DNA of 64,000 nt, taken from positions 28,056,080-28,120,079 of the forward strand of contig NC_091929.1 in NCBI RefSeq assembly GCF_041260155.1, read 5' to 3'. Origin of the DNA: Ptychodera flava. Lineage: Eukaryota > Hemichordata > Enteropneusta > Ptychoderidae. The position numbers and the translations under genes are program-made. The first letter of the stretch is position 1; each line of letters opens with the position of its first letter. The notes beneath the pieces were generated by a model. It worked only from the letters and a program-made list of their open reading frames with translations. It made no database searches and was not told where the DNA came from. Below are positions 9,584 through 56,078 of this stretch, one piece after another.

Positions 9584-10402
9584 TTACGATCTGTATCCGT
9601 ACTTGAATAAAGCGAACTCTTTCTGGATTTCGTAGCAACAGTACTGAATCTTCCGCTCGAGAGAACAGGTACCACGGCAACATTCATCGATAACTCCTCG
9701 CTGTATCTTGTTCCTTGGATTTGTTGAGGTCGGTATAAACGATGATGCAAGGCGTTTGTTGACCGTGACTCCTGGTTATAAAAAAATGAAAAAAGGAAAG
9801 ATAAGTGTGTGCGAAATAAAAGTTAATTTCTGCTATAAGTAAACACAATAGTTCCTAAAAATAAAGTACCCGTAGTGAATTACTTGAAAGACTGGCAAAC
9901 TGTCGCTTTTTGATGAATCAAGTTTGCATTTCAGAAAACTAAAAAAGTATAGTAATATAACCTGTTATGAACTTTACTTCATACTGTCAATGGTGACTAT
10001 AAATTAAGGCAGTTCGCGCCTTGAAATTGAAAGTCATTGTGGAATCGAAATGTGAACCAAACTGCATCAGTAGTATTTGATTTGATTTTACCACTGAGAA
10101 CATTCTATTTAGTGTATTTCGCTCTAGTTAATAGAGATATACACACACTATCTAGCGAAGTAAATGCCAAACTTTTCAAAGGGCTCCTCTGATAAAAATC
10201 AAAACATACCTTGACCGGTAGCGTAGCATCCCCTACAGATAAAGGACAGGGTTGTTGCCAGGCGACCACAATGCCAGTTCCCCCTGCTGTTGGCTGAATT
10301 GCTATAATCACCGTTTCCCGGAAGAAGATCCGTGCGTACTTGTCCTATCGCAAACGCCACCAACAGGGCAGTCGAGAGAAGAAAGGTCCGCTCTTGAATC
10401 AT
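9584..10402 (-). CDS. ILP-1, insulin-like peptide with eight cysteines (two coding exons)
   Basis: Secreted prepro-insulin-like peptide of 126 residues. Coding exons on the minus strand: 10210-10402 (64 codons plus one base) and 9584-9771. The 438-bp intron starts GTATGT and ends CAG, phase 1, the phase of the C-peptide intron in vertebrate insulin and relaxin genes. Residues 1-20 are a signal peptide (FLLSTALLVAFAIG core). The B chain has C45, C56, C59 (HCGRLATTLSFICRGC). K70-R71 is a dibasic cleavage site; KIQR (86-89) is a K-x-x-R site just before the A chain. The A chain begins GVIDECC and has C95, C96, C100, C109, C110, the superfamily signature CC-x3-C-x8-C plus one extra Cys. The extra Cys in each chain (C59, C110) suggests a fourth disulfide. 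The B-chain spacing C-x10-C is one residue shorter than insulin's C-x11-C. Function as hormone or growth factor is inferred from family; the receptor is unknown. Confidence 0.88.
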
Positions 10403-10409
10403 GTTCTCA

Positions 10410-10760
10410 GAGGTTATGTCTATTGATAGTAAAATAATGCAATGAAGTCAGTAACCTCCCAAACTTTTCTATCCTCTTTTTTCTATCCTCTGCCTGTGTC
10501 TCTGCCTACTAGAATTTCATTGAGTTTCATACAGCGCATGCATATTCTGTAATGGTCGGCCTATCTAAGTAAACGACCGTTCTGTCTGGACGAAAATGTT
10601 CCTGTTTGTTATCGCCTGTTTGTTATTTTTATTCCGAGAGATAATAAACGAGTTTTTGTATTTACAACAAATTAGTCACTTCACTTCGAAAAACCCATAA
10701 CTCCTACATTTTCGTGAAGTTTATGTCACAGACGTGAAAAATGTTCTGATTCACTGTACC
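10410..10760 (-). other. Candidate 5'UTR intron of ILP-1
   Basis: On the minus strand an acceptor-like ATCAATAG ends at 10420, 17 bases before the ATG, and a donor-like CAG|GTACAG lies at 10760/10759. Insulin-family genes often have an intron just upstream of the start codon. Both sites are conserved in all four units. No transcript evidence is available here. Confidence 0.35.
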
Positions 10761-11893: not shown

Positions 11894-12047
11894 TAGCGAA
11901 GTACTTGAAGTTCCCCTTTCCTTTGGTTGTCTGGATGCAGTAAGTACTGTACGCGGAAGTGACGTCTAAATGAGGGCGCTAAACAGGAAGTGAAAGACAC
12001 GAAAAAGGAGGTAACACAAATGGTTGGCGTACGTTCTCAGTTGTCTG
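11894..12047 (-). pseudogene. ILP-5-type 3' stub at the unit 1/2 junction
   Basis: These ~154 bases match 53046-53198, the 3' flank of ILP-5 and the last 11 bases of its coding region, including the TGA stop (12037-12039 on the minus strand). Homology stops abruptly at 12047, where unit 2 begins. It is a truncated gene end created by the tandem duplication and has no coding capacity. Confidence 0.85.
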
Positions 12048-15327: not shown

Positions 15328-15360
<33 letters not shown>

Positions 15361-20882: not shown

Positions 20883-22858
20883 GAGGTTTAGTCGATGAAG
20901 AGTGGAGTCACGGCAGGTTTCAGCAATTCTCAACAACTGACATTGATTTAAGTAGATGCATAAATAACAATACTTATAGCTGTCATTTTTTTTTCATTTG
21001 TCGGTGTGAAACCCACATGTCTGTGAAAGTTAGCAATTGCCCATCGTCACTTGTACAACAACAAAAAGAAACGTAATATAACATCTGGTACTTTAGATTT
21101 TTAAGTTAGTATGCTCCTCGCTTGTAAAAGACTTAGGCTTTTGATCAAACTTTCCCCAAGGAATCTTTCAACCTATCTCTTTCGAATCGATGATAAAAAT
21201 CAGGGGGCAGCGTGCACAATTATTTGTAGAGAAACAAATTACCCAAAATTTATCGACATTTGAAATTTAAAATGGCCTTGTGTTAAGGTAGAACGCGCCT
21301 CGGGGATAGAAATTTGGACTCTCAAATTTCTACAATTCTTTTCTGATCTACCACTTGTTTGGGCTCATTTATTTTTCAAGCTCTCCATCGAGGAAGAAAG
21401 AAAAATTTTCACCGTCTTAGTTTTTCGAAAATCAAAACATTTACTTTTTCCCCATAGAGTTGACACATGAATGTCGGCCATTTTGAATTTCAAGTATCGC
21501 AAAGTGTTCAGTGGGTACTTTGTTTTTCTAGCTCCAAACTTTGCACGGTGACCCCGATTTTAGTTGTTGATTTGGTAAGAGAATGGTTGAAAGTTTCATT
21601 TAGGGAATTTTAAGCAAACGTTTAAGGCGATACAACTTTTTGATTGTCACAAAAATATGCTTGTGAAAACTTTTTTCCCTCCATGAGTTTCAAATTGAGC
21701 CCTCATAAATTGTAGGCCAAAAAGTAAAAGTTTATAAGCTTTTTAAGGTATGTGTACCTGGGGCGCATTCCATCCTAATTTGTAATTTTTGGACTATAAA
21801 CTATCCTAAAGTCTGTAAATGATGTTAGCACGGAAAATTGTCTGCTTCTTCTGATGTCTGACTAAATCTGTTCCTCTTTTTCAGATAATTTCTATGATGC
21901 TTGGATCAGTCATCATCAAAGAACACTATCGTCAACATTACTCATCACGACGAGGAGTCCGAAACCTCTGCGGAGAAACCACTTGATAGGAATTTTAAAG
22001 GTATACTGTCACCTGGTCCAATTTTGCCACAGTTACCATTGAAAGAGAAAATCTAACCAATCACAGATTTTAAGCGGGTGGCCGCTTTTTAAAAACAGCG
22101 CCCTCACATGGGATTTTGAATACCAAGGAACGCCCCTTTGACCATATATGGGCATAACTAGATTACAGGTGACTGTATACCTTTGAATAGCGGCTGAGTA
22201 CTTCCCTGTTTGTGTCCTCAAAGTTATCTGGGACGCTTTGGATGCTATAGAAACACACTTTGACAGGGCAAGCGACATAAGAGTCTATGCCGTTGAGTTT
22301 ACAGCAGACGATCGAATATCGTCGTCTGCATCTTTGAATCGTTATCTGGCGCGTTGTTGTCATCAAGTTTGTGCAATCTAAATTGTAAGGAACGACTTTT
22401 CTATCGAGAGTTAATTGCACCTACAGACGTACGTCAAGAAGAGATAGGTGTCTAAAGTGCATTCACCTATGCTGGTCAGACAAATAAACAGCGAGAAAGA
22501 AAATGGCTCAAAACATTTTACGACTTATCGATCGATTTTAAGACGAGATTTAGAGGGAGCCATATAGATTATAAATACACCTTTATCATTGTGTAGCCTG
22601 TATGATGTTACACCTTTAACTGCAAAATAATCAAATTCCGTTTTAATACGTCCACTGTTTTTACTTCGTTCAGGGCATAGCAATTTTGTGTAGAATACTC
22701 TACTTTGGATACGGTAATTGCTGACGTCATCAGCTTGTTTATTGACTTGTTTACAAGTCCAACTTCGCGTACATGGTCGATAAAATCTGAGGATACTAGA
22801 ATGTGCAACAAATTCCTGTAATTGTACTTGTTTTGAGTACAAAACAGTTCACAAGACT

Positions 22859-22864
<6 letters not shown>
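20883..22864. other. Unit 2 sequence between transposons and CT tract
   Basis: It contains one satellite monomer (about 20998-21490), the repeated ILP downstream block and a 184-bp MITE (21999-22182). Minus-strand frames at 22033-22278 and 22163-22420 are shadows of repeat sequence; the second holds RRRYSIVCC but is not an insulin exon. No gene is supported. Confidence 0.6.
21999..22182. mobile_element. 184-bp MITE, AGGTATACTGTCACC family (unit 2)
   Basis: Terminal inverted repeats AGGTATACTGTCACCTG and CAGGTGACTGTATACCT. It is absent from the matching place in units 1 (near 8100) and 4 (near 45795) and present in unit 3 at 37342-37525. A third copy lies at 36019-36202. The target duplication is short and AT-rich. 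Confidence 0.85.

Positions 22865-22917
<53 letters not shown>
22865..22917. repeat. (CT)n microsatellite, unit 2
   Basis: Pure CT tract orthologous to 8781-8815, and longer. Confidence 0.95.
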
Positions 22918-22918
<1 letters not shown>

Positions 22919-24661
22919 CAAAAGTCAACGACACTCATTCCTCATTGTTCGTAGTTTGTGTCACAGGTTCCGATGAAATGTCCGTGGACTGTAAAATGCT
23001 CTCTCTTAGATTTCTTTCGAGACGGAGAACTTAGATATGTAATATCTAATTATAATATGTAAATGCTCTAGATCTAGTATGGCCATTTCAAACGAAGTCA
23101 TGGCAGTGACAATTGTCGATACGGATATTCGTAAATGGCCGCCTTTTCCAGTGTCGTCAGACATTTCCTCTTGGATATTCATATAGATAGACATAAAACT
23201 GCCCAAAATCCAATATGCCTTCAGGTAGCGTTGGACCCAAACCACTATACTTTTTTTCAAAGCAATTTTTCTCATCAGAGGTGTCATGAACCCCCCCCCC
23301 CATTATATAAACAGAGACAATCTAAAGTTAAGTATGGTAGCAATAGTTTCCTCCAAGGATGAAGGGATACATTTCTGAGGTAGAAAACCTCAATTTTGGT
23401 ATTAATGATAAAAATCAATTTAAGTCAAAAACTTGATAACACTTTATGAAATTTTATAACCCATTTGAATAAGAGAATATGTACAAAAAATACGAAAATT
23501 TTGTTTTACGTTGTCTATTCTCTTCGAGGGTTGAAAGACTGACATTCAACATAGGGATAAAAATCATGATAAGCAAAACCGAAACGACTCTTATTCAAAA
23601 TGTAATAACTTTATCGCCAAGCAAAATTGTCGTTTTCTATAGGATTTGAAGAACATAGCGTAAAAAATCACAAAATCTGACCCAGCCAGAGTGGAATTTT
23701 TTTTTGAGATGTTGAACACTGGAGGAGCCAGGAAGTCGGGTGATTAGCATAAATTCGCATAAATTTACACTAATCTTTGGTGAACAAATAAATAAAATTG
23801 AATTAATCTTTCCAAAAAGTTATTTTGAGCAAAGTGCACTGTGTTTATATGTGCAACGCCACCCTAAGATTAATAATCTTCATGATCGAGTTTAAGTAAC
23901 TTCACACCGTCTTTGGGTTGCTTTTAAGAGCTAATGTACTTCGGTTATGGTTTTTACCGACACTGAAATTGTAACAAAACTTTTTTGGTCTTCTACATGT
24001 GTGAGCAAATTTTGAAGTCCTTGGAGTAAATTGATAAGTTTGAGCTTAAATTTGCAACGTCTTGTTTTGAATGTCTGTTTTTGTTTTCGCTTTTCAGATT
24101 GTCCCGAACAGATTTGAGACAGCGATAACTACTACCGTAAACATACAAATATCAACAATTTAGGTAATTTATTTCTACAATACCGTACTTTGAATGACCC
24201 TAGATTTACATTCTTGATCATGAAATAGATTGGTGGGAAAGTTTAAGAAAAGTTGCAAATTTCCTGTTTTGAGGCGCACACCGTACCAATACAGTATGGT
24301 CATCACAGAAAGTCCACATCTGGATAAAGTGAACTTGACGCAACTTGACGTGACTTGTATGTCAACATGACCGCTATATGCATTCAGTACAAGAGGGGGC
24401 TTGAACATGAAACACTCAGACAAAGAAGATATTCTTTGCAAAATTGACATCTCTAAATTTATTATCCAGAGAGACAAATTCAATACGTATTGCAACTCTA
24501 AAAGAATACAATATCATAATATACTGTAATGAATATGCATAACAAAATATGTTGTCGATTGTGAAGTTAGAGAAAGGATAAAATATCCAGACGACATTTG
24601 CACCCATCTTCGATTAAAATTCAACTTGGAACGTCTCCGTCAACCCTAAAACTCGGTGAAA
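22918..24661. other. Intergenic sequence downstream of ILP-2
   Basis: AT-rich and shared almost base for base with unit 3 (38253-40002). Minus-strand frames at 23006-23287, 24175-24495 and 24416-24607 have no recognisable domain and change between units. No gene is supported. Confidence 0.5.
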
Positions 24662-24667
24662 TTTATT
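24662..24667 (-). terminator. Putative poly(A) signal of ILP-2
   Basis: AATAAA on the minus strand, only about 70 bases after the stop. A stretch of about 345 bases present in units 1 and 4 between stop and signal is missing here. Confidence 0.4.
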
Positions 24668-24734
24668 TCATAAGTAAATGTGTACTTGAAATACATCAAA
24701 CACATATTTGATACCGATTGCGAATCATTTCGGA

Positions 24735-25647
24735 TTATGATCCAAATAGGGACAAGAATAAGGCTAACTCTTCCTGGATTTCGTCACAACAGTACTGAAT
24801 CTTCCGCTGCAAAGAGCAGCGACTGTGGCAACATTCATCGATAATGCCCCGCTGTATCTTGTTCCTTGGACTGGTTGTAGTTGGTATAAACGATGACGCA
24901 AGACGTTTGTTGACCGTGACTCCTTATTTTAAAAAAGTGAAAAAGAAGAAAGATAAGTGGGTGCCAAATAAAAAATTTTCTCTCCATAAAGTAAACACAA
25001 TATTTCCTAAAAATAAAGTACCCATTGTGAGTTATTAAAATACTGTCAAATTATACTTGTCGCGTTTGATGAAACAAGTTTGCAAATCAGAAAACTAAAA
25101 AAGTATGTTAATTTAACCTGTTACAAGCTTTACTTTACACTTGTGTAAGTAAGACAGATCGTGCCTCGAAATTGATTGAAATGTGAACCAAACTACTACA
25201 GTAGTATTTGATTTTATCTTACCACTGAGAAAATGTTTAGATTTACTGAAAGTTTATTAATAAGGTGATACCTTAGAAGTCAGCATATACAATTATCGCG
25301 TCAGTGCTATTAGTTTCTCACAAACCACGGCGATTGACATAAATGCTGTTAAACGCAGGTGTATTTTGCTTCGGTTGGTAGAGATATACACACTATCGAG
25401 CGAAGTAAATGCCAAAGTTATCAAAGGGTTCCTCTGATAAAAATCAAAACACACCTTGATCGGTAGCGTAGCATCCCCTACATATGAACGACATGCTTTC
25501 TATCAGGAGACTGCAATCCAAGTCCCTCCTGCCTTTGGCTGAATTGCTGTAATCACCGTCTCCCGGTAGTAGATCAGTGCGTACTTGTCCAATCGCAAAC
25601 GCCACCAACAGGGCAGTCGAGAGAAGAAAGGCTCGCACTAGAATCAT
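24735..25647 (-). CDS. ILP-2, insulin-like peptide with eight cysteines (two coding exons)
   Basis: 126-residue secreted prepropeptide. Minus-strand exons: 25455-25647 and 24735-24922; the 532-bp intron starts GTGTGT and ends AAG, phase 1. The signal peptide matches ILP-1 over the core FLLSTALLVAFAIG. GRR (39-41) just before the B chain could be an extra processing site. B chain: DLDCSLLIESMSFICRGC, with C45, C56, C59. K70-R71 and KIQR (86-89) bracket an 18-residue C-peptide. The A chain begins GIIDECCHSRC and has C95, C96, C100, C109, C110, a full CC-x3-C-x8-CC. 'GI(I/V)xxCC' is the classic start of insulin A chains. The protein is identical to ILP-3. A paracrine or hormonal ligand role is inferred from the family. 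Confidence is high for family and exon structure, none for physiology. Confidence 0.9.
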
Positions 25648-25664
25648 GTTCGCAGAGGTTCTGT

Positions 25665-27006
25665 CTATTGATAGTAAAATAATGCAATGAAGTCAGAAAC
25701 TCAAACTTTTCTATCATTTTCTTTTTTCTATCCTCTGCCTGTGTTCCCCTGCCTAGTGGAATTTTATTAAGTTATGTCTTCTAAACAGGGCATGTATTTT
25801 CTGTAACGGTGGGCCTACCTAAGTAAACGACCGTTCTGTCTATACTCAGCTTTCTGTCTCTGCTGCCTGCTCGGATCTCTGACCGCTCGCTTGACTGTCC
25901 GTCCGTATGAGCAAACGTGCACTGGTCAGGCTGCCTTAAAGCCACAAAGTCGGCCATTTTTCAGGATGAATTTTGTTTGATACGAAATACAATTTGTATT
26001 GTTTTACATGTTGACAGATACTAAATAAATTGGTGACCATGAATATATACGACCCCGGTTTTAGAAAAATTAAATGAAACCATCGCGAGAATGAATTAAT
26101 AGTGAATTCATTTTCGCGATGGTTTCAATTATTGTGTCTAAATCTAGGGTTGAATATATGCATGGTCATAAATTCATTCAGTATCTTTCAACATGTCAAA
26201 CAATAGAAAGAGAATTTCGTATCAAACAAAATTCATGAAAAATTGCCAAATTTGTCCCTTGAAGGTAGTATGCACCTCAAAATTTAAAAACCCACTTTCG
26301 CAAGGAAACTTTCAACCAATATCTTTCAAAGGAAAAAAAATAAAACTCGGGGAGTAACGGTGCAAATTTTGTTACGGTGGAAACAAATACTTTACCCACT
26401 ACTTGAAAATCAAAATGGCCGCCATTCGTTTCTTCGATTACAACAAAACTAAGATTACGAAGATTTCAAAATGAGCCCCAAACAAGCGGTACACGAGAAA
26501 AGTATTGTTAAATGAATTGTAAAATTTTAGTGCAAAATTTTACCAATTTTTTATTAATATTTTTCTGTGATGTTTTGATAATTTTGAACCAAATGGACAT
26601 CAAATTTCATTGGCTACAGTTTTTTTCTCAAAATTGACTTTGGCGCTCAAAGGGTTAATGCCTATCTTTTCTTTGCGGTAACATAATTTAGCACATGATT
26701 ATCGCCAGACGAAAATTGTCCTGTTTGTTATCGCCTGATTGTCATCAATCCTAAAGATAATGAACGAGTTTCAGTCACTTCACTTCAAAAAACCAAACAC
26801 AGAAACTACTACATTTTCGTGATTTTTATGACACACTGAGAAGTAAAAACATTCTTCAGAATTTCAGTACGGGTCGATTCACTGTACCTGTATAATTTGT
26901 TCGTCTGCCTCTCTCTTTCTTCGGGTTCTCTTCGTCTGTGAGTGGATTGCAGTCTAGCGGTGCGCCGGTACAGTTCTAGGAACGCTAGTTCGCCCTTTAT
27001 TTTATT
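25665..27006 (-). promoter_or_regulatory. Candidate 5'UTR intron, 5'UTR exon and promoter of ILP-2
   Basis: Minus-strand acceptor-like ATCAATAG ends at 25665; donor-like CAG|GTACAG is at 26888/26887; the TATA-like AATAAAATAAAG is at 26996-27006. The intron would be about 1.2 kb here against 340 bp in ILP-1 because of the foldback MITE and neighbouring insertions. This is inferred from motif order and conservation. Confidence 0.3.
25934..26265. mobile_element. 332-bp foldback MITE upstream of ILP-2
   Basis: Nearly the whole element is an imperfect palindrome: CCTTAAAGC...TGAATTTTGTTTGATACG pairs with CGTATCAAACAAAATTCA...CCCTTGAAGG, meeting at ACCATCGCGA/TCGCGATGGT and a GAATT-rich loop. Copies occupy the same place in units 3 and 4 but not unit 1. 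It would lie within the candidate 5'UTR intron. Confidence 0.85.
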
Positions 27007-27008
27007 CT

Positions 27009-27260
27009 GTGGGGTTATCTGAAGTAATAGAACTCAATTTGGCTGACAGGTTGAGTCAGATGTCACCTTCGCACGCAGAGAAGTTGGTCAAGACGACCAT
27101 TATTGATCCGTATCACTTGCCGATGAGAAGAAAACCGCGAAGTGTGGCTTTGAGCAGCGTACAAAGTGCTCTGTATCACGAACTATACAATAACAACAGT
27201 TCCGGCACCCTCAACCATATGTTACCGATCATGATTGGCAGTTTGCATAAGGCACGTTGA
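27009..27260 (+). other. Conserved plus-strand open frame, unrecognised, probably not a gene (unit 2)
   Basis: 83-codon frame from ATG, containing LSQMSPSHAEK and DPYHLPMRRKPRSVALSS. It is immediately upstream of the ILP promoter candidate on the other strand. Differences from unit 1 are mostly amino-acid changing, so protein constraint is doubtful. Confidence 0.35.
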
Positions 27261-27273
27261 AATGAGTCCATTT

Positions 27274-27921
27274 AAGGTAGAATGCGCCCCGGGGATACAA
27301 AATGGAGTCAAAAATTTTTCTTCATAGAGTTAACACAGGGATGGCAGCCATTTTGAATTTTGAATATCGGTAAATCTTGGGTAATTTGTATCTCTGGTAC
27401 CAAAATTTGCACAATGACCACCGATTCTTATTCTTGATTGATAGAATTGGAATTTGATAAAGATAGAATGACTCTCGGCAACAAATGAAAATCGAAAATG
27501 TCATTTTTCTTCTATAGAGTTAACACTGGTATGGCAGCCATTTTGAATATTGAATAGCTGTAAATCTTGGGTAATTTGTTTCTCTAGTATCAAAATTTGC
27601 ACAGTTATCCCCGATTTTATTCTTTTTGAAAGAGAATGGTGGAAAGATTCCTTGAACACGATTGGAATAATTGGGATAACTGGATTTTCATATTTTGCAA
27701 ATTTCTCAAAAGTGTTAGGTGCCATATAGCTGAATGTTGCAATATTGCAAATTACAATAAAAACAAGTGTGTAATGTATAAAGAAAAGAAGATGAGATAA
27801 CATTTGTAGATTAAATCGTCATTACTTCATCATCCACTTATCCTAATTAGTTCAAATCGTGTTCTTGAGGAAAGTTTGAGCAAAAGCTGAAGTCTTTCAT
27901 TTTCCAGGCGCATGCTGCCTT
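27274..27921. repeat. MITE pair of the AAGGTA...TGCGCC family (unit 2)
   Basis: Same structure and position as 11146-11789, with degenerate inverted ends AAGGTAGAATGCGCC and GGCGCATGCTGCCTT. Confidence 0.6.
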
Positions 27922-28023
27922 CAAAAGCTCAAGTACCCACGGGCATTTAAAGCATTGCATTTTGGCCAAATGTACGTCAAAGATTTCGTGGTTTTTTTGC
28001 GAAATCATATTTTCGCCTTCGTC

Positions 28024-28177
28024 TAGCGAAGTACTTGAAGTTCCCCTTTCCCTTGGTTGTCTGGGTGCAGTAAGTACCGTACGCGGAAGTGACGTCTAAG
28101 TGAGGGCGCTAAACAGGAAGTGAAAAACACGAAAAAGGAGGTAACACAAATGGTTGGCGTACGTTCTCAGTTGTCTG
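28024..28177 (-). pseudogene. ILP-5-type 3' stub at the unit 2/3 junction
   Basis: Same truncated gene end as at 11894-12047, ending at TTGTCTG (28177) and followed at once by ACAAGCTTC of unit 3. Confidence 0.85.
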
Positions 28178-35492: not shown

Positions 35493-35498
35493 GATATG

Positions 35499-37341: not shown

Positions 37342-37525
37342 AGGTATACTGTCACCTGGTCCAATTTTGCCACAGTTACCATGGCAAGAGAAAATCTAAC
37401 CAATCACAGATTTTAAGCGGGCGGCCGCTTTTTAAAAACAGCGCCCTCACATGGGATTTTGAATACCAAGGAACGCCCCTTTGACCATATATGGGCATAA
37501 CTAGATTACAGGTGACTGTATACCT
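37342..37525. mobile_element. 184-bp MITE, AGGTATACTGTCACC family (unit 3)
   Basis: Same insertion as 21999-22182 in unit 2, so it predates the split of units 2 and 3 but not that of units 1 and 4. Confidence 0.85.
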
Positions 37526-38202
37526 TTGAATAGCGGCTGAGTACTTCCCTGTTTGTGTCCTCAAAGTTATCTGGGACGCTTTGGATGCTATAGAAACACA
37601 CTTTGACAGGGCAAGCGACATAAGAGTCTATGCCGTTGAGTTTACAGCAGACGATCGAATATCGTCGTCTGCATCTTTGAATCGTTATCTGGCGCGTTGT
37701 TGTCATCAAGTTTGTGCAATCTAAATTGTAAGGAACGACTTTTCTATCGAGAGTTAATTGCACCTACAGACGTACGTCAAGAAGAGATAGGTGTCTAAAG
37801 TGCATTCACCTATGCTGGTCAGACAAATAAACAGCGAGAAAGAAAATGGCTCAAAACATTTTACGACTTATCGATCGATTTTAAGACGAGATTTAGAGGG
37901 AGCCATATAGATTATAAATACACCTTTATCATTGTGTAGCCTGTATGATGTTACACCTTTAACTGCAAAATAATCAAATTCCGTTTTAATACGTCCACTG
38001 TTTTTACTTCGTTCAGGGCATAGCAATTTTGTGTAGAATACTCTACTTTGGATACGGTAATTGCTGACGTCATCAGCTTGTTTATTGACTTGTTTACAAG
38101 TCCAACTTCGCGAACATGGTCGATAAAATCTGAGGATACTAGAATGTGCAACAAATTCCTGTAATTGTACTTGTTTTGAGTACAAAACAGTTTACAAGAC
38201 TC

Positions 38203-38252
<50 letters not shown>
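38203..38252. repeat. (CT)n microsatellite, unit 3
   Basis: Pure CT tract, orthologous to those of the other units. Confidence 0.95.
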
Positions 38253-38254
<2 letters not shown>

Positions 38255-40002
38255 CAAAAGTCAACGACACTCATTCCTCATTGTTCGTAGTTTGTGTCAC
38301 AGGTTCCGATGAAATGTCCGTGGACTGTAAAATGCTCTCTCTTAAGATTTCTTTCGAGACGGAGAACTTAGATATGTAATATCTAATTATAATATGTAAA
38401 TGCTCTAGATCTAGTATGGCCATTTCAAACGAAGTCATGGCAGTGACAATTGTCGATACGGATATTCGTAAATGGCCGCCTTTTCCAGTGTCGTCAGACA
38501 TTTCCTCTTGGATATTCATATAGATAGACATAAAACTGCCCAAAATCCAATATGCCTTCAGGTAGCGTTGGACCCAAACCACTATACTTTTTTTCAAAGC
38601 AATTTTTCTCATCAGAGGTGTCATGAACCCCCCCCTCCCCCATTATATAAAAACAGAGACAATCTAAAGTTAAGTATGGTAGCAATAGTTTCCTCCAAGG
38701 ATGAAGGGATACATTTCTGAGGTAGAAAACCTCAATTTTGGTATTAATGATAAAAATCAATTTAAGTCAAAAACTTGATAACACTTTATGAAATTTTATA
38801 ACCCATTTGAATAAGAGAATATGTACAAAAAATACGAAAATTTTGTTTTACGTTGTCTATTCTCTTCGAGGGTTGAAAGACTGACATTCAACATAGGGAT
38901 AAAAATCATGATAAGCAAAACCGAAACGACTCTTATTCAAAATGTAATAACTTTATCGCCAAGCAAAATTGTCGTTTTCTATAGGATTTGAAGAACATAG
39001 CGTAAAAAATCACAAAATCTGACCCAGCCAGAGTGGAGTTTTTTTTTTTGAGATGTTGAAAACTGGAGGAGCCAGGAAGTCGGGTGATTAGCATAAATTC
39101 GCATAAATTTACACTAATCTTTGGTGAACAAATAAATAAAATTGAATTAATCTTTCCAAAAAGTTATTTTGAGCAAAGTGCACTGTGTTTATATGTGCAA
39201 CGCCACCCTAAGATTAATAATCTTCATGATCGAGTTTAAGTAACTTCACACCGTCTTTGGGTTGCTTTTAAGAGCTAATGTACTTCGGTTATGGTTTTTA
39301 CCGACACTGAAATTGTAACAAAACTTTTTTGGTCTTCTACATGTGTGAGCAAATTTTGAAGTCCTTGGAGTAAATTGATAAGTTTGAGCTTAATTTGCAA
39401 CGTCTGTTTTGAATGTCTGTTTTTGTTTTCGCTTTTCAGATTGTCCCGAACAGATTTGAGACAGCGATAACTACTACCGTAAACATACAAATATCAACAA
39501 TTTAGGTAATTTATTTCTACAATACCGTACTTTGAATGACCCTAGATTTACATTCTTGATCATGAAATAGATTGGTGGGAAAGTTTAAGAAAAGTTGCAA
39601 ATTTCCTGTTTTGAGGCGCACACCGTACCAATACAGTATGGTCATCACAGAAAGTCCACATCTGGATAAAGTGAACTTGACGCAACTTGACGTGACTTGT
39701 ATGTCAACATGACCGCTATATGCATTCAGTACAAGAGGGGGCTTGAACATGAAACACTCAGACAAAGAAGATATTCTTTGCAAAATTGACATCTCTAAAT
39801 TATTATCCAGAGAGACAAATTCAATACGTATTGCAACTCTAAAAGAATACAATATCATAATATACTGTAATGAATATGCATAACAAAATATGTTGTCGAT
39901 TGTGAAGTTAGAGAAAGGATAAAATATCCAGACGACATTTGCACCCATCTTCGATTAAAATTCAACTTGGAACGTCTCCGTCAACCCTAAAACTCGGTGA
40001 AA
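38253..40002. other. Intergenic sequence downstream of ILP-3
   Basis: Near-identical to 22918-24661. The longer minus-strand frame here (39517-39948) arises from a one-base difference joining two frames that are separate in unit 2, which shows these frames are not conserved genes. Confidence 0.5.
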
Positions 40003-40008
40003 TTTATT
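40003..40008 (-). terminator. Putative poly(A) signal of ILP-3
   Basis: Minus-strand AATAAA about 70 bases past the stop, as in ILP-2. Confidence 0.4.
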
Positions 40009-40075
40009 TCATAAGTAAATGTGTACTTGAAATACATCAAACACATATTTGATACCGATTGCGAATCATTTCGGA

Positions 40076-40992
40076 TTATGATCCAAATAGGGACAAGAAT
40101 AAGGCTAACTCTTCCTGGATTTCGTCACAACAGTACTGAATCTTCCGCTGCAAAGAGCAGCGACTGTGGCAACATTCATCGATAATGCCCCGCTGTATCT
40201 TGTTCCTTGGACTGGTTGTAGTTGGTATAAACGATGACGCAAGACGTTTGTTGACCGTGACTCCTTATTTTAAAAAAAGTGAAAAAGAAGAAAGATAAGT
40301 GGGTGCCAAATAAAAAATGTTCTCTCCATAAAGTAAACACAATATTTCCTAAAAATAAAGTACCCATTGTGAGTTATTTAAAATACTGTCAAATTATACT
40401 TGTCGCGTTTTGATGAAACAAGTTTGCAAATCAGAAAACTAAAAAAGTATGTTAATTTAACCTGTTACAAGCTTTACTTTACACTTGTGTAAGTTAAGAC
40501 AGATCGTGCCTCGAAATTGATTGAAATGTGAACCAAACTACTACAGTAGTATTTGATTTTATCTTACCACTGAGAAAATGTTTAGATTTACTGAAAGTTT
40601 ATTAATAAGGTGATACCTTAGAAGTCAGCATATACAATTATCGCGTCAGTGCTATTAGTTTCTCACAAACCACGGCGATTGACATAAATGCTGTTAAACG
40701 CAGGTGTATTTTGCTTCGGTTGGTAGAGATATACACACTATCGAGCGAAGTAAATGCCAAAGTTATCAAAGGGTTCCTCTGATAAAAATCAAAACACACC
40801 TTGATCGGTAGCGTAGCATCCCCTACATATGAACGACATGCTTTCTATCAGGAGACTGCAATCCAAGTCCCTCCTGCCTTTGGCTGAATTGCTGTAATCA
40901 CCGTCTCCCGGGAGTAGATCAGTGCGTACTTGTCCAATCGCAAACGCCACCAACAGGGCAGTCGAGAGAAGAAAGGCTCGCACTAGAATCAT
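40076..40992 (-). CDS. ILP-3, insulin-like peptide with eight cysteines (two coding exons)
   Basis: 126 residues, same amino-acid sequence as ILP-2. Minus-strand exons: 40800-40992 and 40076-40263; intron 536 bp, GTGTGT...AAG, phase 1. Signal peptide, then B chain with C45, C56, C59; K70-R71; 18-residue C-peptide ending KIQR; A chain GIIDECCHSRC with C95, C96, C100, C109, C110. The intron is a few bases longer than in ILP-2 (poly-A/T length), one of very few differences, so the duplication or a conversion event is recent. Both copies look functional; together they may simply raise the dose of one hormone. The eight-cysteine pattern predicts three insulin-type disulfides plus one linking C59 and C110, by analogy and not shown here. 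Confidence 0.9.
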
Positions 40993-41009
40993 GTTCGCAG
41001 AGGTTCTGT

Positions 41010-42349
41010 CTATTGATAGTAAAATAATGCAATGAAGTCAGAAACTCAAACTTTTCTATCATTTTCTTTTTTCTATCCTCTGCCTGTGTTCCCCTGCCTA
41101 GTGGAATTTTATTAAGTTATGTCTTCTAAACAGGGCATGTATTTTCTGTAACGGTGGGCCTACCTAAGTAAACGACCGTTCTGTCTATACTCAGTTTTCT
41201 GTCTCTGCTGCCTGCCCGGATCTCTGACCGCTCGCTTGACTGTCCGTCCGTATGAGCAAACGTGCACTGGTCAGGCTGCCTTAAAGCGACAAAGTCGGCC
41301 ATTTTTCATGATGAATTTTGTTTGATACGAAATACAATTTGTATTGTTTTACATGTTGACAGATACTAAATAAATGGGTGACCATGAATATATACGACCC
41401 CGGTTTTAGAAAAATTAAATGAAACCATCGCGAGAATGAATTAATGGTGAATTCATTTTCGCGATGGTTTCAATTATGTGTCTAAATCTAGGGTTGAATA
41501 TATGCATGGTCATAAATTCATTCAGTATCTTTCAACATGTCAAACAATAGAAAGAGAATTTCGTATCAAACAAAATTCATGAAAAATTGCCAAATTTGTC
41601 CCTTGAAGGTAGTATGCACCTCAAAATTTAAAAACCCACTTTCGCAAGGAAACTTTCAACCAATATCTTTCAAAGGAAAAAAAATAAAACTCGGGGAGTA
41701 ACGGTGCAAATTTGTTACGGTGGAAACAAATACTTTACCCACTACTTGAAAATCAAAATGGCCGCCATTCGTTTCTTCGATTCCAACAAAACTAAGATTA
41801 CGAAGATTTCAAAATGAGCCCCAAACAAGCGGTACACGAGAAAAGTATTGTAAAATGAATTGTAAAATTTTAGTGAAAAATTTTACCAATTTTTATGAAT
41901 ATTTTTCTGTGATGTTTTGATAATTTTGAACCAAATGGACATAAAATTTCATTGGCTACAGTTTTTTTCTCAAAATTGACTTTGGCGCTCAAAGGGTTAA
42001 TGCCTATCTTTTCTTTGCGGTAACATAATTTAGCACATGATTATCGCCAGACGAAAATTGTCCTGTTTGTTATCGCCTGATTGTCATCAATCCTAAAGAT
42101 AATGAACGAGTTTCAGTCACTTCACTTCAAAAAACCAAACACAGAAACTACTACATTTTCGTGATTTTTATGACACACTGAGAAGTGAAAACATTCTTCA
42201 GAATTTCAGTACGGGTCGATTCACTGTACCTGTATAATTTGTTCGTCTGCCTCTCTCTTTCTTCGGGTTCTCTTCGTCTGTGAGTGGATTGCAGTCTAGC
42301 GGTGCGCCGGTACAGTTCTAGGAACGCTAGTTCGCCCTTTATTTTATTC
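41010..42349 (-). promoter_or_regulatory. Candidate 5'UTR intron, 5'UTR exon and promoter of ILP-3
   Basis: Acceptor-like site ends at 41010, donor-like CAG|GTACAG at 42230/42229, TATA-like AATAAAATAAAG at 42338-42349, all on the minus strand and matching the other units. Inference only. Confidence 0.3.
41279..41609. mobile_element. 331-bp foldback MITE upstream of ILP-3
   Basis: Same palindromic element and position as 25934-26265. Its outer arms pair CCTTAAAGCGACAAAG with TTTGTCCCTTGAAGG. Confidence 0.85.
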
Positions 42350-42350
42350 T

Positions 42351-42602
42351 GTGGGGTTATCTGAAGTAATAGAACTCAATTTGGCTGACAGGTTGAGTCA
42401 GATGTCACCTTCGCACGCAGAGAAGTTGGTCAAGACGACCATTATTGATCCGTATCACTTGCCGATGAGAAGAAAACCGCGAAGTGTGGCTTTGAGCAGC
42501 ATACAAAGTGCTCTTTATCACCAACTATACAATAACAACAGTTCCGGCACCCTCAACCATATGTTACCGATCATGATTGGCAGTTTGCATAAGGCACGTT
42601 GA
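42351..42602 (+). other. Conserved plus-strand open frame, unrecognised, probably not a gene (unit 3)
   Basis: 83-codon frame nearly identical to that at 27009-27260. No domain is recognised; see the unit 1 entry for why it is doubted. Confidence 0.35.
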
Positions 42603-42615
42603 AATGAGTCCATTT

Positions 42616-43274
42616 AAGGTAGAATGCGCCCCGGGGATACAAAATGGAGTCAAAAATTTTTCTTCATAGAGTTAACACAGGGATGGCAGCCATTTTGAAT
42701 TTTGAATATCGGTAAATCTTGGGTAATTTGTATCTCTGGTACCAAAATTTGCACAATGACCACCGATTCTTATTCTTGATCGATAGAATTGGAATTTGAT
42801 AAAGATAGAATGACTCTCGGCAACAAATGAAAATCGAAAATGTCATTTTTCTTCTGTAGAGTTAACACTGGTATGGCAGCCATTTTGAATATTGAATAGC
42901 TGTAAATCTTGGGTAATTTGTTTCTCTAGTATCAAAATTTGCACAGTTATCCCCGATTTTTATTCTTAATTTGAAAGTGAATGGTGGAAAGATTCCTTGA
43001 ACACGATTGGAATAATTGGGATAACTGGATTTTCATATTTTGCAAATTTCTCAAAAGTGTTAGGTGCCATATAGCTGAATGTTGCAATACTAGTATTGCA
43101 AATTACTCATAAAAACAAGTGTGTAAAGTATAAAGAAAAGAAGATGAGATAACATTTGTAGATTAAATCGTCATTACTTCATCATCCACTTATCCTAAAT
43201 TAGTTCAAATCGTGTTCTTGAGGAAAGTTTGAGCAAAAGCTGAAGTCTTTCATTTTCCAGGCGCATGCTGCCTT
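42616..43274. repeat. MITE pair of the AAGGTA...TGCGCC family (unit 3)
   Basis: Same structure and position as in units 1 and 2. Confidence 0.6.
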
Positions 43275-43379
43275 CAAAAGCTCAAGTACCCACGGGCATT
43301 TAAAGCATTGCATTTTGGCCAAATGTACGTTTAATATTTCGTGGGTTTTTTTTGCGAAATCATATTTTTGCCTTCGTCT

Positions 43380-43532
43380 AGCGAAGTACTTGAAGTTCCC
43401 CTTTCCTTTGGTTGTCTGGATGCAGTAAGTACTGTACGCGGAAGTGACGTCTAAATGAGGGCGCTAAACAGGAAGTGAAAGACACGAAAAAGGAGGTAAC
43501 ACAAATGGTTGGCGTACGTTCTCAGTTGTCTG
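43380..43532 (-). pseudogene. ILP-5-type 3' stub at the unit 3/4 junction
   Basis: Truncated ILP-5-like gene end, as at the other junctions, stopping at TTGTCTG (43532). Unit 4 follows with AAAAGCTTCATTAG, one base changed from ACAAGCTTC. Confidence 0.83.
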
Positions 43533-44254
43533 AAAAGCTTCATTAGAGCAACTGCAAAGCGTTGCTCATTAAAGTGAAAAAATGGATCGAGGCGTGTGCA
43601 ATACAGTTACTGGTTTCTTCCGCCTCGTGGACTAATAAGAACGATTTCAGTCCTGGACTCGTGTGACACCAATTTCCCAATGTTCATACATTAATACATG
43701 GTAAATGTCCACTTTGTAGTTATCTTTCATCTGGCAGATTACCTTTTACTGATGTACAATCATGATATTCAAGTTATGCAATCTAATGGAAAAAAAATAC
43801 AATTTTCACTAGGCATCACCTTTTTTATTGAACATAAAACAGATATAAAACTACAGAGACAAAAATAGTTTTTTCCAGCGATGGGGGAGAGAAAATTGCC
43901 GGCCGACCGGAGCTGTATCTGCAAATTGCCACCAAAAAAGTCTTAATTTACAATGAAGGAGGACATACACGGTTAGAACCCTCGTATACCAAAACGAGGC
44001 CTTGAACCTTTCCCGATTAGAACCCTCAACCACAACGAGGCCTTGAAACTTTCCCGGTCGGGTGCACAGTATCGCTGTTCCAAGTTTGTTGAAAGCACTT
44101 AAACATGCTATTCCCATCACTTGAAGATCCCTACAAAACTTGAACGACATGAAGGTGACTTTGACAACTAGTTCCGCTAAAAAATTGCGCAATAAAGAAA
44201 AATTATTTTTACAGATCACTTGACCTAAGAGTGAAGTGTAGGCCTCAGCGATGT

Positions 44255-46471
44255 GTCTCAAGTTCACAGGCATCTGCAGGATGGGTTGACGTGCATGCTG
44301 ATTTTACACAACTTGACCTGTAGTTTGTGTCGATCGACGAGTAACATTTTGAAGATTCTGAGGACTGCAAACGACCTGATTGTTCACGCGCCATGTTGAC
44401 TCTAACACTTGGAATAATCGATTTGTTGAAGGATGGCATTATTGATAAATGTAAGTGCAAAAATATTTCCGTCGAGGAGGTTCCTGAGAAAGTGTGTCAC
44501 TCTTCACACCTGTGTATATCACTACAAGTCGTCGATGTTAAACATGATGTACTTACAACTTGAAAAGTGTCACTTTGCGTCCAATCAAACGTAAGCGATG
44601 AATGTGAAACGTCAGGGGCTGTTTTCATTGGTTAAGACATAAACTAACACGTACTTAAGCTGAACATGGTAACAGCTGTGAGGTTTAGTCGATGAAGAGT
44701 TTGGGGCCACGGCAGGTTTCAGCAATTTTCAACAACTGACATTGATTTAAATAGATGCATAAAATAACAATATTTATAGCTGTCATATTTTTGCATTTGT
44801 CGGTTTGCAACCTACATGTCTGTGAAAGTTAGCAATTACCCATCGTCACTTGTACAACAAAAAAAGAAACGTAATATAACATCTTGTACTTTAGTTTTTT
44901 AAGGTAGTATGCTCCTCGCTTGTGAAAGACTTAAGCTTTTGATCAAACTTTCCTCAAGGAATCTTTCAACCATTCTCTTTCGAGTTGATGATAAAAATCA
45001 GTGGTCAGCGTGCAAAATTTGATTGTAGAGAAACAAATTAGACAAAATTTATCGACACTTGAAATTTAAAATGGCCTTGTGTTAAGGTAGAACGCGCCTC
45101 GGGGATAGAAATTTGGACTCTCAAATTTCTACAATTCTTTTCTGATCTACCACTTGTTTGGGCTCATTTATTTTTCAAGCTCTCCATCGAGGAAGAAAGA
45201 AAAATTTTCACCGTCTTAGTTTTTCGAAAATCAAAAAATTTACTTTTTCCCCATAGAGTTAACACATGGATGGCGGCCATTTTGAATTGCAAGTATCGCA
45301 AAATGTTTAGTTGGTACTTTGTTTTTCTAGCTCCAAACTTTGCACGGTGACCTCGATTTTAGTTGTTGATTTGGTGAGAGATTGGTTGAAATTTTCATTG
45401 AGGGAATTTCCAGCAAAAGTTTAAAGCGATACAATTTTTGATTGTCACAAAAATATGCCTATGAAAACTTTTTTTCCTTCATGAGTTTCAAATTGAGCCC
45501 CAATAAATTGAAGGCCAAAAAGTAAAAGTTTATAAGCTTTTTAAGATATGTGTACCTGAGGCGCATTCCATCCTACTTTGTGATTTTTGGACTATAAACT
45601 ATCCTAAAGTCTGTAAATGATGTTAGCACGGAAAATTGTTTGCTTCTTCTGATGTCTGACTAAATCTGTTCCTCTTTTTCAGATACTTTCTATGATGCTT
45701 GGATCAGTCATCAACAAATGACACATTCGTCAACATTACTCATTACGACGAGGAGTCCGAAACCTCTGCGGAAAAACCACTTGATGGGAATTTTAAATAG
45801 CGGCTGAGTACTTCCCTGTTTGTGTCCGCAAAGTTATCTGGGACGCGTTTGGTGCTATAGAAACACATTTTGACAGGGCAAGCGACATAAGAGTCTATGG
45901 CGTTGAGTTTACAGCAGACGATCGAATATCGTCGTCTGCATCTTTGAATCGTTATCTGGCGCGTTGTTGTCATCGAGTTTGTGCAATGTAAATTGTAAGG
46001 AACGACTTTTCTATCGAGAGTTAATTGCACCTACAGACGTACGTCAAGAAGAGATAGGTGTCTAAAGTGCATTCACCTATGCCGGTCAGACAAATAAACA
46101 GCGAGAAAGAGATAGCTCAAAACATTTTACGAATATCGATCGATTTTAAGACGAGATTTAGAGGGAGCCATATAGATTATAAATATACCTTTATCATTGT
46201 GTAGCCTGTGCAATGTTACACCTTTAAATGCAAAATAATCGCATCCCGGATTAATACGTCCACTGTTTTTACTTCGTTCAGGACATAACCATTTTGTGTA
46301 GAATACTCTATTTTGGATACAGTAATTACTGCCGTCATCAGCTAGTTTATTGACTTGTTTACAAGTCCAACTTCGCGAACATGGTCGATAAAATCTGAGG
46401 ATGCTGGAATGTGCAACGAATTCCTGTAATTGTACTTGTTTTGAGTACAAAACAGTTTACAAGAACCCCCC

Positions 46472-48785: not shown

Positions 48786-49698
48786 TTATGATCTGTATCC
48801 GGACTTGAATAAGGCGAACTCTTGCTGGACTGCGTTACAACAGTATTGAATCTTCCGCTCGAAAGAGCAGTACGTGTGGCAACATTCATGGATAAAGTCC
48901 TGCTGCATCTTCTTACTTGGACTGATTGTAGTTGGTATAAACGATGATGCATGACGTTTGTCGACCGTGACTCCTTGTTATAAAAGAAAGTGACAAAGAA
49001 GAAAGATAAGTGGGTGCCAAATAAAAATTGTCCTCTGCTATAAGTAAACACAATACTTCCTAAAAATAAATCACCCGTTGTGAGTTAGTTTAAATACTGT
49101 CAAATTCTACTTGTCGCGTTTTGATGAATCAAGTTTGCTTTTCAGAAAACTAACAAAGTATAGTATAACCTGTTAGGAGCTTCAATGTACACTCTTAATA
49201 ATGTGTAAACAGACATTTCGCGCCTCGAAATTGATTGAAACGTGAACCAAACTACTGCAGTAGTATTTGATTTAATCTTACCACAGAGAAAATTCTACTG
49301 AAAATTTGTTAATAAAGTGATACCTTGGAAGTCAGCGTATACAATTATCGCGTCAGTGCTGTTAACGTCTCACAAACCACGGCGTTTGACGTAAATGCTG
49401 GTAAGCGCAAGTGTATTTTGCTTCAGTTGGTAGAGATACACACACTAGCGAGCGAAGTAAATGTCAAACTCTGAAAAGGTTCCTCTTTATGAAATCAAAA
49501 CATACCTTGATCGGTAGCATAGCATCCCCTACAGATGAAGGACATGATATCTACCAGGTGAGTGCAATCCAAGTCCCTCCTGTCTTTGGCTGACTTGCTG
49601 TAATCACCGTCTCCCGGGAGTAGATCAGTGCGTACTTGTCCAATCGCAAACGCCACCAACAGGGCAGTCGAGAGAAGAAAGGCTCGCACTTGAATCAT
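48786..49698 (-). CDS. ILP-4, insulin-like peptide with eight cysteines and altered processing site
   Basis: 126 residues. Minus-strand exons: 49506-49698 and 48786-48973; intron 532 bp, GTATGT...AAG, phase 1. Signal peptide as in ILP-1 to ILP-3. DRR (39-41) precedes the B chain DLDCTHLVDIMSFICRGC (C45, C56, C59). K70-R71 is kept. The C-peptide/A-chain junction differs: the KIQR|G of the other copies reads KMQQ|D here, so the K-x-x-R site is lost; an upstream K85-K86 pair may replace it and would give an A chain longer by three or four residues. The A chain reads DFIHECCHTYC and has C95, C96, C100, C109, C110. The loss of the usual Gly at the A-chain start and its Ile/Val-rich context is unusual for insulins, but all cysteines and the reading frame are intact, so the gene is probably functional with a changed product. 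Confidence 0.87.
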
Positions 49699-53045: not shown

Positions 53046-53187
53046 GGCGAAGTACTTGAAGTTCCCCTTTCCCTCGGTTGTCTGGGTGCAATAAGTACTG
53101 TAAGCGGAAGTGACGTCTAAATGAGGGCGCTAAACAGGAAGTGAAAGTCACGAAAAAGGAGGTAACACAAATGGCGGGCGTACGTTC

Positions 53188-56078
53188 TCAGTTGTCTGTG
53201 TTCCCCATTAGTGCCAAAAATTTGTGAAATTCGTTTCGCCTTGCTTCACAACAAAATTGCATCATTTTATGGATGGTACAGCGTCGATTGCAGCACTTGT
53301 CCCTTATCTTTTCCCTCAAATCTTCATCTTGAATTTGAACGGATTCATTCATGGCCGACTCACCTAGAAAGAGAACGCAAAGGACAACATTAGAATGATA
53401 AAATTCCAACATATATTTGTGTTGTCATCAATTTTGAAATATCAGTACACAGTAGATTCAGTTTGGAGAAAAAAATCAGTACCTTACAATACATGCAATT
53501 TTACATAGGTAATATTATTCATAAGTGAAACTTTATGCACAGTTATGCAAATCACCCGATTTACTGGTTTCTTTTTTCCCTTACATTCCTCTGTTATGAT
53601 ACGCCACCTGCAGTAGTTTTGTGAGTCTTAGGGAGGGCGCCATCGTGGTTTGGGGCATAATTTACTGGCAGTAAAGAGCTTAATCTTTGGAGTGAACAAT
53701 TAAATTTTTGCACCTTGTAAAATAAAATACCAACAAGTGTTTTTGGATATTTTTTTCAGACACTTTGATTAAAATAACTTTAGCCAACAGAAAATGATGT
53801 CAATTAGGTCCATAACTGTAAAGGAATTCCATAACTAGATATGAACTGAATGTGCTCACGTGTTGATATCCAGTGAACAGACTAGAAAATTTTAGCATTT
53901 ACTCAACCGAACAACGAGTGCTAATGTGACCCCTGAATGGAAGGAATGACGTGTTATATGAATGACTGGTACAGATTTTGAGTTTGACAAAATTACAAAC
54001 TTGGTTATCAAGCTTGAAATTGACTGCTGATGACTCGACATGTATTGACATTGATCAGACACTACTGGACGCATGAAATAATACAGTATGACATGAATTA
54101 ATGCATACTTTTTGACTGTTATAAAATTGTGTAAAACAATTGTACCTAAGACCTGTCTCAAACGACGACGAGCAAGGAGATGTTACGCAACATTTGCAGA
54201 CCTCAGATTAATCACTAACCAAAACACAAGAACAAAGACAGACAGTGTACATTCTGACAGCAGTTCAATTGAGCACACGACGCGGAGTGGAAGACAGACT
54301 TCTGACAAGACTATAAGTGTATACGTTCTACTGCCAGAGTAACTATCTCTGACGAGGATTTATTGTATTATGTTTTTCGATATTCCTGTCAATAAACCCA
54401 ATTCATACCAATATAATGGACACCGTGTGAGGCGTGTGATAAGAACCGTCAGATATCTGTTATATCATTATATGTGGCAGGTTTCATCAACTTTCGCACA
54501 GTACTCTCAGAGTTAAATCTCTAATTACAAAACTTTATTTAATATGTAAATGAGCTAATTATTAACTTGACACGCCCAATGCTTCTCAGTACAATTGAAT
54601 ATTTATCAGATCAATATCTGTAGCAAGTTTCATCAAATGTAATGCTGTAATTTTGGAGTAATGTCACTAATTGCAAAGTTCGTTAAATATGCAAATGAAC
54701 CCTTAATTAACTCCACACAACTAAATGCTTTACACCACAATTAGATATCTATCGGATTAGTATCTGCAGCAGATTCATCAAATTTGGTGCAGTTATTTTG
54801 GAGTTATATGACTAATTACAAAACTTCATAAAATATGCAAATGAGCTATTTGTTAACTTGACACTGCCAAATGCTTGTCAGTACAATTAGATATTTATCA
54901 GATCAATATCTGTACCAGATTTCACTGACTTGGGTGCCGTAATTTCAGAGTGATATACCTAATTACTAAGTTCATTAAATATGCAAATGAACCCTTAATC
55001 AACTTGACACTATTAAGTGCTTTACACCACAGTTAGATATCAGTCAGATCAGTATCTGCAGCAGAATTCATCAAATTTCGTGCAGTTATATCAGAGTTAT
55101 ATGACTAATAATAAAACTTCATAAAATATGCAAATAAGCTATTTAATAACTTGACACAGCCCAATGCTTCTAAGTATAATTAGATATATATCAGATCAAT
55201 ATTTGTTGCACGTATCATCAAGTCTGGTGCAGGAATTTTAGAGTTATGTCACTAATAACAAAAGTTCATTAATATGCAAATGAGCAGATAATTGACATGA
55301 CACTCACAGTATCATCATTATGTTCTGAGATTGTCATCTGTGAAAAGTTTCATGCAGTTTTGTGCAGTATTTCTTGATATATGCCTACACTGTCATTACC
55401 GTCTCCATAGGGAAACCATTGTACGGAAAAAAATGATATCGCATAACTTCATTAATATGCAAGCAACACTAACTAAAACCTAATCAGTTCTTGCAAGTAG
55501 CATATGGTACCTGTGTAGCAAATCTGACTTGAATCTGTTCAGGTGTTTTTGAGTTATCGTTTAAACAGACAGACAGACACACACACACACACACACAAAC
55601 ACACACACGGACAGACAGACAGACATCACTATGACATTAGCACACGTGTGAACACGTGAGCTAAAAATGCATAAATTAGTAAAATGTTGTACTAAAATTT
55701 TGGCGGGAAATATTATGGCGCTCAAACGGTTCAGACTCCTAAGACAGACATGCAGCCTGCAAGACAGACAGACAAATAGAAAGGATGACGGAACTTTACA
55801 TTCCGCCCCTGTTCAATGTAAAATTGCATTGTTGAGACTTCAAATTATTTTTTTCTAAAACAAGACGATGGAAAGGCGAAAAAAATGAATAGTCTACAGT
55901 TCTTACTTTTAGGGCTGGAATCCTGAGTCGTTGCGTAGCAACCATCGCATACGCTCTCAACCATGCTGTAAGTTCTGGAGCAGAATACATCGTCACCTTG
56001 GTTACGTGGACGAGCGTAGCAGTTTGCTACAAACAAAATCGTCACCATGACAGCGAAGATTACCTGATTTATTTCCAT
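53188..56078 (-). CDS. ILP-5, diverged insulin-like peptide with eight cysteines (two coding exons)
   Basis: 115-residue secreted peptide. Minus-strand exons: 55907-56078 (57 codons plus one base) and 53188-53363; the 2543-bp intron starts GTAAGA and ends in a pyrimidine tract plus CTAG, phase 1, as in ILP-1 to ILP-4. Signal peptide residues 1-22 (VIFAVMVTILFVANCYA). B chain: FCSRTYSMVESVCDGCYATT with C33, C44, C47, the same C-x10-C-x2-C. A chain: KCCNRRCTIHKMMQFCC with C81, C82, C86, C95, C96, exactly CC-x3-C-x8-CC. There is no dibasic KR between the chains; only single basic residues (R74, K76, R78, K80) are available, so it may be cut at monobasic sites or stay single-chain like IGF. A good acceptor (TTTTGCAG) lies five bases before the ATG, suggesting a 5'UTR intron. 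Its 3' end is the source of the stubs at the unit junctions. Confidence 0.88.
54440..55670. mobile_element. Tandem-repeat element in the ILP-5 intron (pearl/HINE-like)
   Basis: About six tandem copies of a ~145-bp unit, each with ATATGCAAATGA-type and TTAACTTGACAC blocks (anchors near 54543, 54690, 54836, 54980, 55129, 55274). Then follows a (CAGA)n/(CA)n microsatellite (55565-55625), and finally CACGTGTGAACACGTG, a perfect small hairpin followed by AGCTAA. Repeat core, ACAG microsatellite, and a terminal hairpin plus CTRR resemble Helentron-related non-autonomous elements described in molluscs and flies. That match is from memory. No coding capacity. Confidence 0.5.

Follow-up and report, generated by a model that had tools for sequence, protein, structure and literature searches.

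A probable octinsulin-type array of five tandem insulin-related genes in the hemichordate Ptychodera flava

Results

Five eight-cysteine insulin-like genes in tandem

A stretch of 64,000 bases of the Ptychodera flava genome (contig NC_091929.1 of assembly GCF_041260155.1, forward-strand positions 28,056,080 to 28,120,079; 38.1% G+C), hereafter the window, carries five two-exon genes for insulin-like peptides with eight cysteines, all on the minus strand. As judged from sequence, they very probably form a tandem array of octinsulin-type insulin-related genes, growing by local duplication and making secreted hormones with four predicted disulfides. The genes are called G5, G4, G3, G2 and G1 in transcription order, and in that order the start-to-start spacings are 6,380, 8,706, 15,345 and 15,245 bases (Table 1).

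All five genes described in the original prediction were recovered, each with a signal peptide, B and A chains and one phase-1 coding intron, which as modelled has GT and AG ends in 5 of 5 genes. The introns measure 438 (G1), 532 (G2), 536 (G3), 532 (G4) and 2543 bp (G5). The precursors have 126 residues in G1-G4, encoded by exons of 193 and 188 bases, and 115 in G5. Every one of them has a hydrophobic N-terminus, with a best 12-residue mean hydropathy of 2.55 in G1-G4 and 3.18 in G5, and after the last cysteine there follow 16 residues in G1-G4 and 19 in G5. G2 and G3 encode identical proteins, with one synonymous difference in the coding sequence, and thus four distinct peptides come from five genes. 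A possible 3′ splice site lies 5 bases before the G5 ATG, so that an intron in the 5′ untranslated region of this gene is possible.

All eight cysteines, the splice sites and the reading frames are kept in 5 of 5 genes, as had been claimed for the frames. It had also been proposed that four of the A-chain frames are shorter than another open frame of their region; when frames overlapping the A exon by at least 90 bases were counted, this was true of only three of the five (G1, G2 and G4). An open frame of 102 codons (48779-49084, minus strand) overlaps the A exon of G4; a stop interrupts its counterpart in G2 and G3, and this frame is therefore probably due to chance.

The pattern C-x10-C-x2-C in the B exon and CC-x3-C-x8-CC in the A exon were both present in 5 of 5 genes, which predicts a fourth disulfide in each peptide. 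G5 has a ninth cysteine at residue 20, within its presumed signal peptide. In the six frames of the window the exact A pattern occurred five times, every time in G1-G5, and it occurred in none of the 100 first-order Markov sequences that were simulated as a chance control. The B pattern alone was observed 11 times, whereas the simulated sequences had it 2.3 times on average and at most 12 times, and by this control it is weak evidence by itself, not beyond chance. The A-chain motif of the superfamily was not found anywhere in the window outside the five genes.

Table 1. Coordinates of the array genes and of the repeated sequences around them
Feature	Positions	Strand	Gene start/end	Remarks
G1 exon 1	10210..10402	-	10402/9584	Signal peptide, propeptide, B chain (C-x10-C-x2-C)
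G1 exon 2	9584..9771	-		C peptide with KR, A chain (CC-x3-C-x8-CC), 16-residue tail, stop
G2 exon 1	25455..25647	-	25647/24735	
G2 exon 2	24735..24922	-		
G3 exon 1	40800..40992	-	40992/40076	Protein the same as that of G2
G3 exon 2	40076..40263	-		
G4 exon 1	49506..49698	-	49698/48786	
G4 exon 2	48786..48973	-		Gln replaces the Arg found before the A chain in G1-G3
G5 exon 1	55907..56078	-	56078/53188	Divergent member
G5 exon 2	53188..53363	-		A chain CC-x3-C-x8-CC; precursor without KR site
Repeat unit around G2	20883..28908			
Repeat unit around G3	36228..44261			
G5 3′ end, 152 bases	53047..53198	-		Last 11 nt of coding sequence and downstream bases; copied in other units
Copy of G5 3′ end upstream of G1	11896..12047	-		94.7% identical; duplication scar
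Copy of G5 3′ end upstream of G2	28026..28177	-		94.1% identical
Copy of G5 3′ end upstream of G3	43381..43532	-		94.7% identical

Membership of the insulin superfamily

Homology searches and gene structure supported the placement of all five genes in the insulin superfamily. Two characters of the superfamily, the A-chain motif CCx3Cx8C and the separation of the B from the A cysteines by a phase-1 intron, were found in 5 of 5 genes. Comparison of the spliced proteins with insulin profiles, which had been suggested as a check, gave a divided answer: all 4 distinct proteins matched Pfam Insulin (PF00049), with 23.9 bits for G2 (= G3), 21.4 for G1, 18.8 for G5 and 14.9 for G4, but the curated cut-off of 23 bits was passed by G2 (= G3) only. 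By sequence, G2 matched solved insulin-like growth factor 1 (IGF-1) and insulin chains in the Protein Data Bank (PDB), the best being IGF-1 (E 1.9e-4), and a profile of the four peptides had an insulin construct as its best PDB match (E 0.0088). G5 alone had no match among PDB sequences up to E 10; within the window, its A exon matched the A exon of G2 (tblastn E 7.5e-7).

Probable assignment to the octinsulins

Octinsulins are described as having eight cysteines, four predicted disulfides, a single phase-1 coding intron and typical KR sites, with one gene in echinoderms and several in hemichordates (PMC8286064), and a potential octinsulin has been reported in Xenoturbella (PMC11521371). The array shares with the ambulacrarian octinsulins the eight cysteines, the single phase-1 coding intron, the presence of several genes in a hemichordate and the KR convertase site, found in 4 of 5 genes (G1-G4), although G5 has no KR and the likeness was judged from descriptions instead of aligned sequences (PMC8286064). 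The sea cucumber Apostichopus japonicus has an insulin-like peptide, AjILP, with three cysteines in B, five in A and a Cx10C B motif that is unusually short (PMC6586643). The same Cx10C motif, as printed for AjILP, stands together with a third B cysteine in 5 of 5 genes of the array, and the five A cysteines, the CCx3Cx8C motif and residues beyond the last cysteine are also shared (PMC6586643). The A-chain part of AjILP is longer, with 53 residues, and its dibasic sites flank the C peptide on both sides, whereas in the array G1-G4 have KR at the B-C side, and at the A side there is one Arg in G1-G3 and Gln in G4 (PMC6586643). We infer that AjILP is itself an octinsulin. Overall, the octinsulin label given in the original prediction is supported, not proved, by eight cysteines split 3+5, the single phase-1 coding intron, the several copies and the Cx10C B motif.

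Several observations weigh against this assignment. The octinsulins shown in PMC8286064 all have typical KR sites, whereas G5 has none, and G4 lacks the Arg before its A chain, where it has Gln. G1, G4 and G5 score under the Pfam Insulin cut-off. Linkage to IGF and dilp7 genes is an octinsulin trait, and no such neighbour was seen within the window, where the A-chain motif is confined to the five genes. A large protein collection gave no relative (25 candidates for G2, none with E<=1, and no candidate for G5). The pattern was matched 73 times in viral contigs and 73 times in prokaryote genomes, but not one of these matches was confirmed; few animals may be represented in collections of this sort.

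Veenstra proposed arthropod gonadulin / Dilp8 as the octinsulin ortholog (PMC8286064, PMC7357564); gonadulins differ from the array in being described with the six-cysteine insulin arrangement (PMC7357564, PMC8286064). The word "insulin" was not found in the hemichordate genome paper, as far as its text was covered (PMC11175523). Octinsulins as a kind, and their multiplication in hemichordates (acorn worms), are already known from the literature.

Other eight-cysteine families

A different origin was also considered, in which the array belongs to an eight-cysteine family of another animal phylum, independent of the ambulacrarian octinsulins, and has acquired its fourth bond convergently, as the nematode beta-type peptides did. 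The solved nematode peptide (PDB 8tk9, 2kji), which we take to be INS-6, has the identical A pattern CC-x3-C-x8-CC and a third B cysteine after the usual two, and the A pattern can therefore arise elsewhere. However, its B chain reads Cx11Cx3C instead of Cx10Cx2C, and 11 residues separate its B and A cysteines, against a gap of 35 residues with KR in G1-G4. Pfam Ins_beta (PF03488) was reported for G5 only, which scored 10.6 bits, below the cut-off of 21, and a nematode beta-type insulin was rejected on that ground. Molluscan insulin-related peptides also have eight cysteines and four predicted disulfides, but their extra cysteines lie before the A-chain CC and toward the B-chain N-terminus (PMC5996578, PMC9221753). 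Their motif, CxCCx3Cx8C with Cx9-14Cx11C, is not that of the array, CCx3Cx8CC with Cx10Cx2C, and they were likewise rejected (PMC5996578). Since Cx10C with three B cysteines has in addition been reported from a sea cucumber (PMC6586643), which counts against an origin outside the Ambulacraria, we consider such an origin unlikely.

Within the Ambulacraria, the multinsulins are an amplified Asterozoa family found in genomic clusters, and some of them have eight cysteines and four predicted disulfides (PMC8286064). They typically have four coding exons, with further phase-2 and phase-1 introns, and their extra cysteines are at positions unlike those of octinsulins (PMC8286064). The two coding exons and one intron of the array, as modelled, rule them out as a candidate, and we give this explanation almost no credence. 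An ambulacrarian IGF was rejected as well, because it requires a large, basic C-terminal extension (PMC8286064) and the tails in the array have just 16 or 19 residues.

Predicted precursor processing

KR occupies residues 70-71 in G1-G4, and RR stands three residues ahead of the first B cysteine in G2-G4 and is absent in G1. In G1-G3 the A chain begins after a single Arg, as GVIDECC or GIIDECC; IGF-1 has GIVDECC in the PDB alignment. In the insulin superfamily the signal peptide directs the precursor into the secretory path. Each gene of the octinsulin-type array would accordingly encode a secreted precursor from which the signal peptide is removed and which is cleaved, at KR in G1-G4, into B and A chains. 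Four disulfides would then hold the chains together, namely the three usual insulin bonds and one from the third B cysteine (C-x2-C) to the last A cysteine (CC). The last bond is placed by analogy with the pairing that we assume for the nematode beta-type peptide, which the literature checked did not give. The product would be released as a hormone or neuropeptide.

Duplication history of the array

The units of about 8 kb around G2 and G3 are 97.6% identical. The 152 bases at the 3′ end of G5 recur upstream of G1, G2 and G3 (Table 1), and at the equivalent place upstream of G4 lies the 3′ end of G5 itself. Because of these copies, the data suggest that the duplicated unit starts at the 3′ end of G5 and that G1-G4 derive from a G5-G4 pair. 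Local unequal duplication of such a unit would have expanded the array, with G2/G3 as the youngest pair.

Further repeated sequence was observed between and beside the genes. A 491-bp unit forms four tandem copies downstream of G1 (5632-7600), and related single stretches occur in the G2, G3 and G4 units. Extra spacers built of internal repeats lie between G1 and G2 (12731-20884) and between G2 and G3 (28909-35494), and none was seen between G3 and G4. About 340 bp directly 3′ of G1 (9218-9558) are common to G4 and missing from G2 and G3, and the 3′ region of the latter two is therefore different. An open frame of 100 codons is conserved on the plus strand of three units (10830-11132, 26958-27260 and 42300-42602); the copy at 10830 had no Pfam match.

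Maintenance of the copies

The exons of G1, G2 and G4 are equal in length and aligned without gaps, while their introns differ by 7-8 insertion or deletion (indel) events per pair. At the rate seen in the introns, the exons would be expected to carry 4.9-5.5 indels, and the probability of finding none is 0.004-0.007. This supports function of the G1, G2 and G4 lineages, but not of each copy, and G3 is too young to be judged. The proposal that the locus is probably active fits the lack of exon length changes in G1, G2 and G4.

The ratio of nonsynonymous to synonymous substitution rates (dN/dS) across the whole coding sequence was 1.36 for G2-G4 (34.5 nonsynonymous and 7.5 synonymous changes), 0.54 for G1-G4 and 0.43 for G1-G2. 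We do not claim proven positive selection, given that the value of 1.36 carries no significance test and the other two are 0.54 and 0.43. Another explanation of the intact frames is that part of the array is dead and includes unexpressed copies or pseudogenes, which recent duplication or gene conversion would have preserved. Near-identity of G2 and G3, which means that the intactness of G3 is no independent evidence, would agree with this, as would the processing residue lost in G4 and the G2-G4 ratio above 1. The eight cysteines, splice sites and frames that are intact in all five genes, the 0 exon length changes against 7-8 intron indel events and the two lower dN/dS values argue the other way, and a partly dead array seems to us rather improbable.

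A divergence peak over the hormone-coding core

We aligned the collinear unit over 6,329 bases for G2-G4 and 6,323 bases for G3-G4, and defined as its core the sequence that begins with the B chain and runs through the intron to the stop codon. Divergence from G4 was 7.3-7.4% as the unit mean, 13.9% in the core and 6.4-6.5% outside it. The most divergent 700-base window lies within the gene (24743-25453 in G2, 40084-40794 in G3); outside the core the top 700-base window reached 10.6-10.9%, and none attained the core value. Compared with the nearest 1.2-1.3 kb, the core had 110 differences in 794 sites against 107 in 2,240 for G2-G4 (Fisher P 1e-15) and 111 in 798 against 98 in 2,235 for G3-G4 (Fisher P 2e-17), in tests where neighbouring sites are not independent and where the two comparisons are nearly one, G2 and G3 being near identical. 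The intron is also in the peak, at 13.6%, and hence linkage or an older ancestry of the core explains the peak as well as amino-acid selection does. In G1-G4 the comparison with the flanks gave the reverse (core 18.6%, flanks 25.4%, P 4.5e-4), because the G1 flanks, partly unalignable, enter stretches that do not align. No earlier description of the copied 3′ ends or of this peak was found in the octinsulin literature checked.

Among the G1, G2 and G4 proteins, 3 of 21 signal-peptide residues vary. In the B chain, variation affects 6 of 8 residues at 45-52, five of them differing in all three proteins, and the adjoining ten residues, 53-62, are invariant. Six of 11 A-chain residues vary at 90-100, where residues 98 and 99 differ in all three. 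Sites differing in all three proteins are clustered, five of them falling within 6 codons (permutation P 0.0012, for a region that was noticed before the test), and variable sites as a whole are not clustered among these genes (permutation P 0.80). In insulin and relaxin, the corresponding positions are on the surface, near receptor contacts. The differences after the first B cysteine and in the A loop hint at receptor-facing diversification. In one possible account, which we regard as rather doubtful, recombination would keep the signal peptide and flanks alike among the copies, and selection would maintain or promote differences between the mature peptides, chiefly in the B-helix residues that follow the first B cysteine and in the loop of the A chain, so that neighbouring genes would yield four-disulfide hormones with different receptor-binding faces.

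Other features of the window

Ten further open frames, a subset of those in the window, were compared with Pfam to E 0.1: one matched a reverse transcriptase above the cut-off, two had weak or low-complexity matches below it and seven had none. The reverse transcriptase fragment (730-1278, plus strand; Pfam RVT_1, E 5.3e-16) has matches in neighbouring frames that contain stops, and in our reading of the element type it is probably a decayed element like those without long terminal repeats. Nothing was found in the window with Rfam or ARAGORN, nor by a scan for bacterial promoters and terminators, which is unsuited to an animal gene. Inside the G5 intron there is a tandem repeat of about 146/293 bp (54451-55304), with motifs like TTTGCATATTTAATGAA. 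Also seen were a 25-bp minisatellite, which lies directly upstream of G5, and long tracts of perfect TC/GA repeats (56202-56687; 46478-46561; 61082-61163).

Discussion

No octinsulin receptor is shown in the literature passages checked. With four related natural variants, in which the frames are conserved and putative contact residues varied, the array offers ready probes for such a receptor. Should the copies have different receptor-binding faces, they would act as agonists or antagonists of graded strength in case octinsulins signal through one receptor, and would address different receptors in case they do not. The array is also a test of whether extra copies gain new roles.

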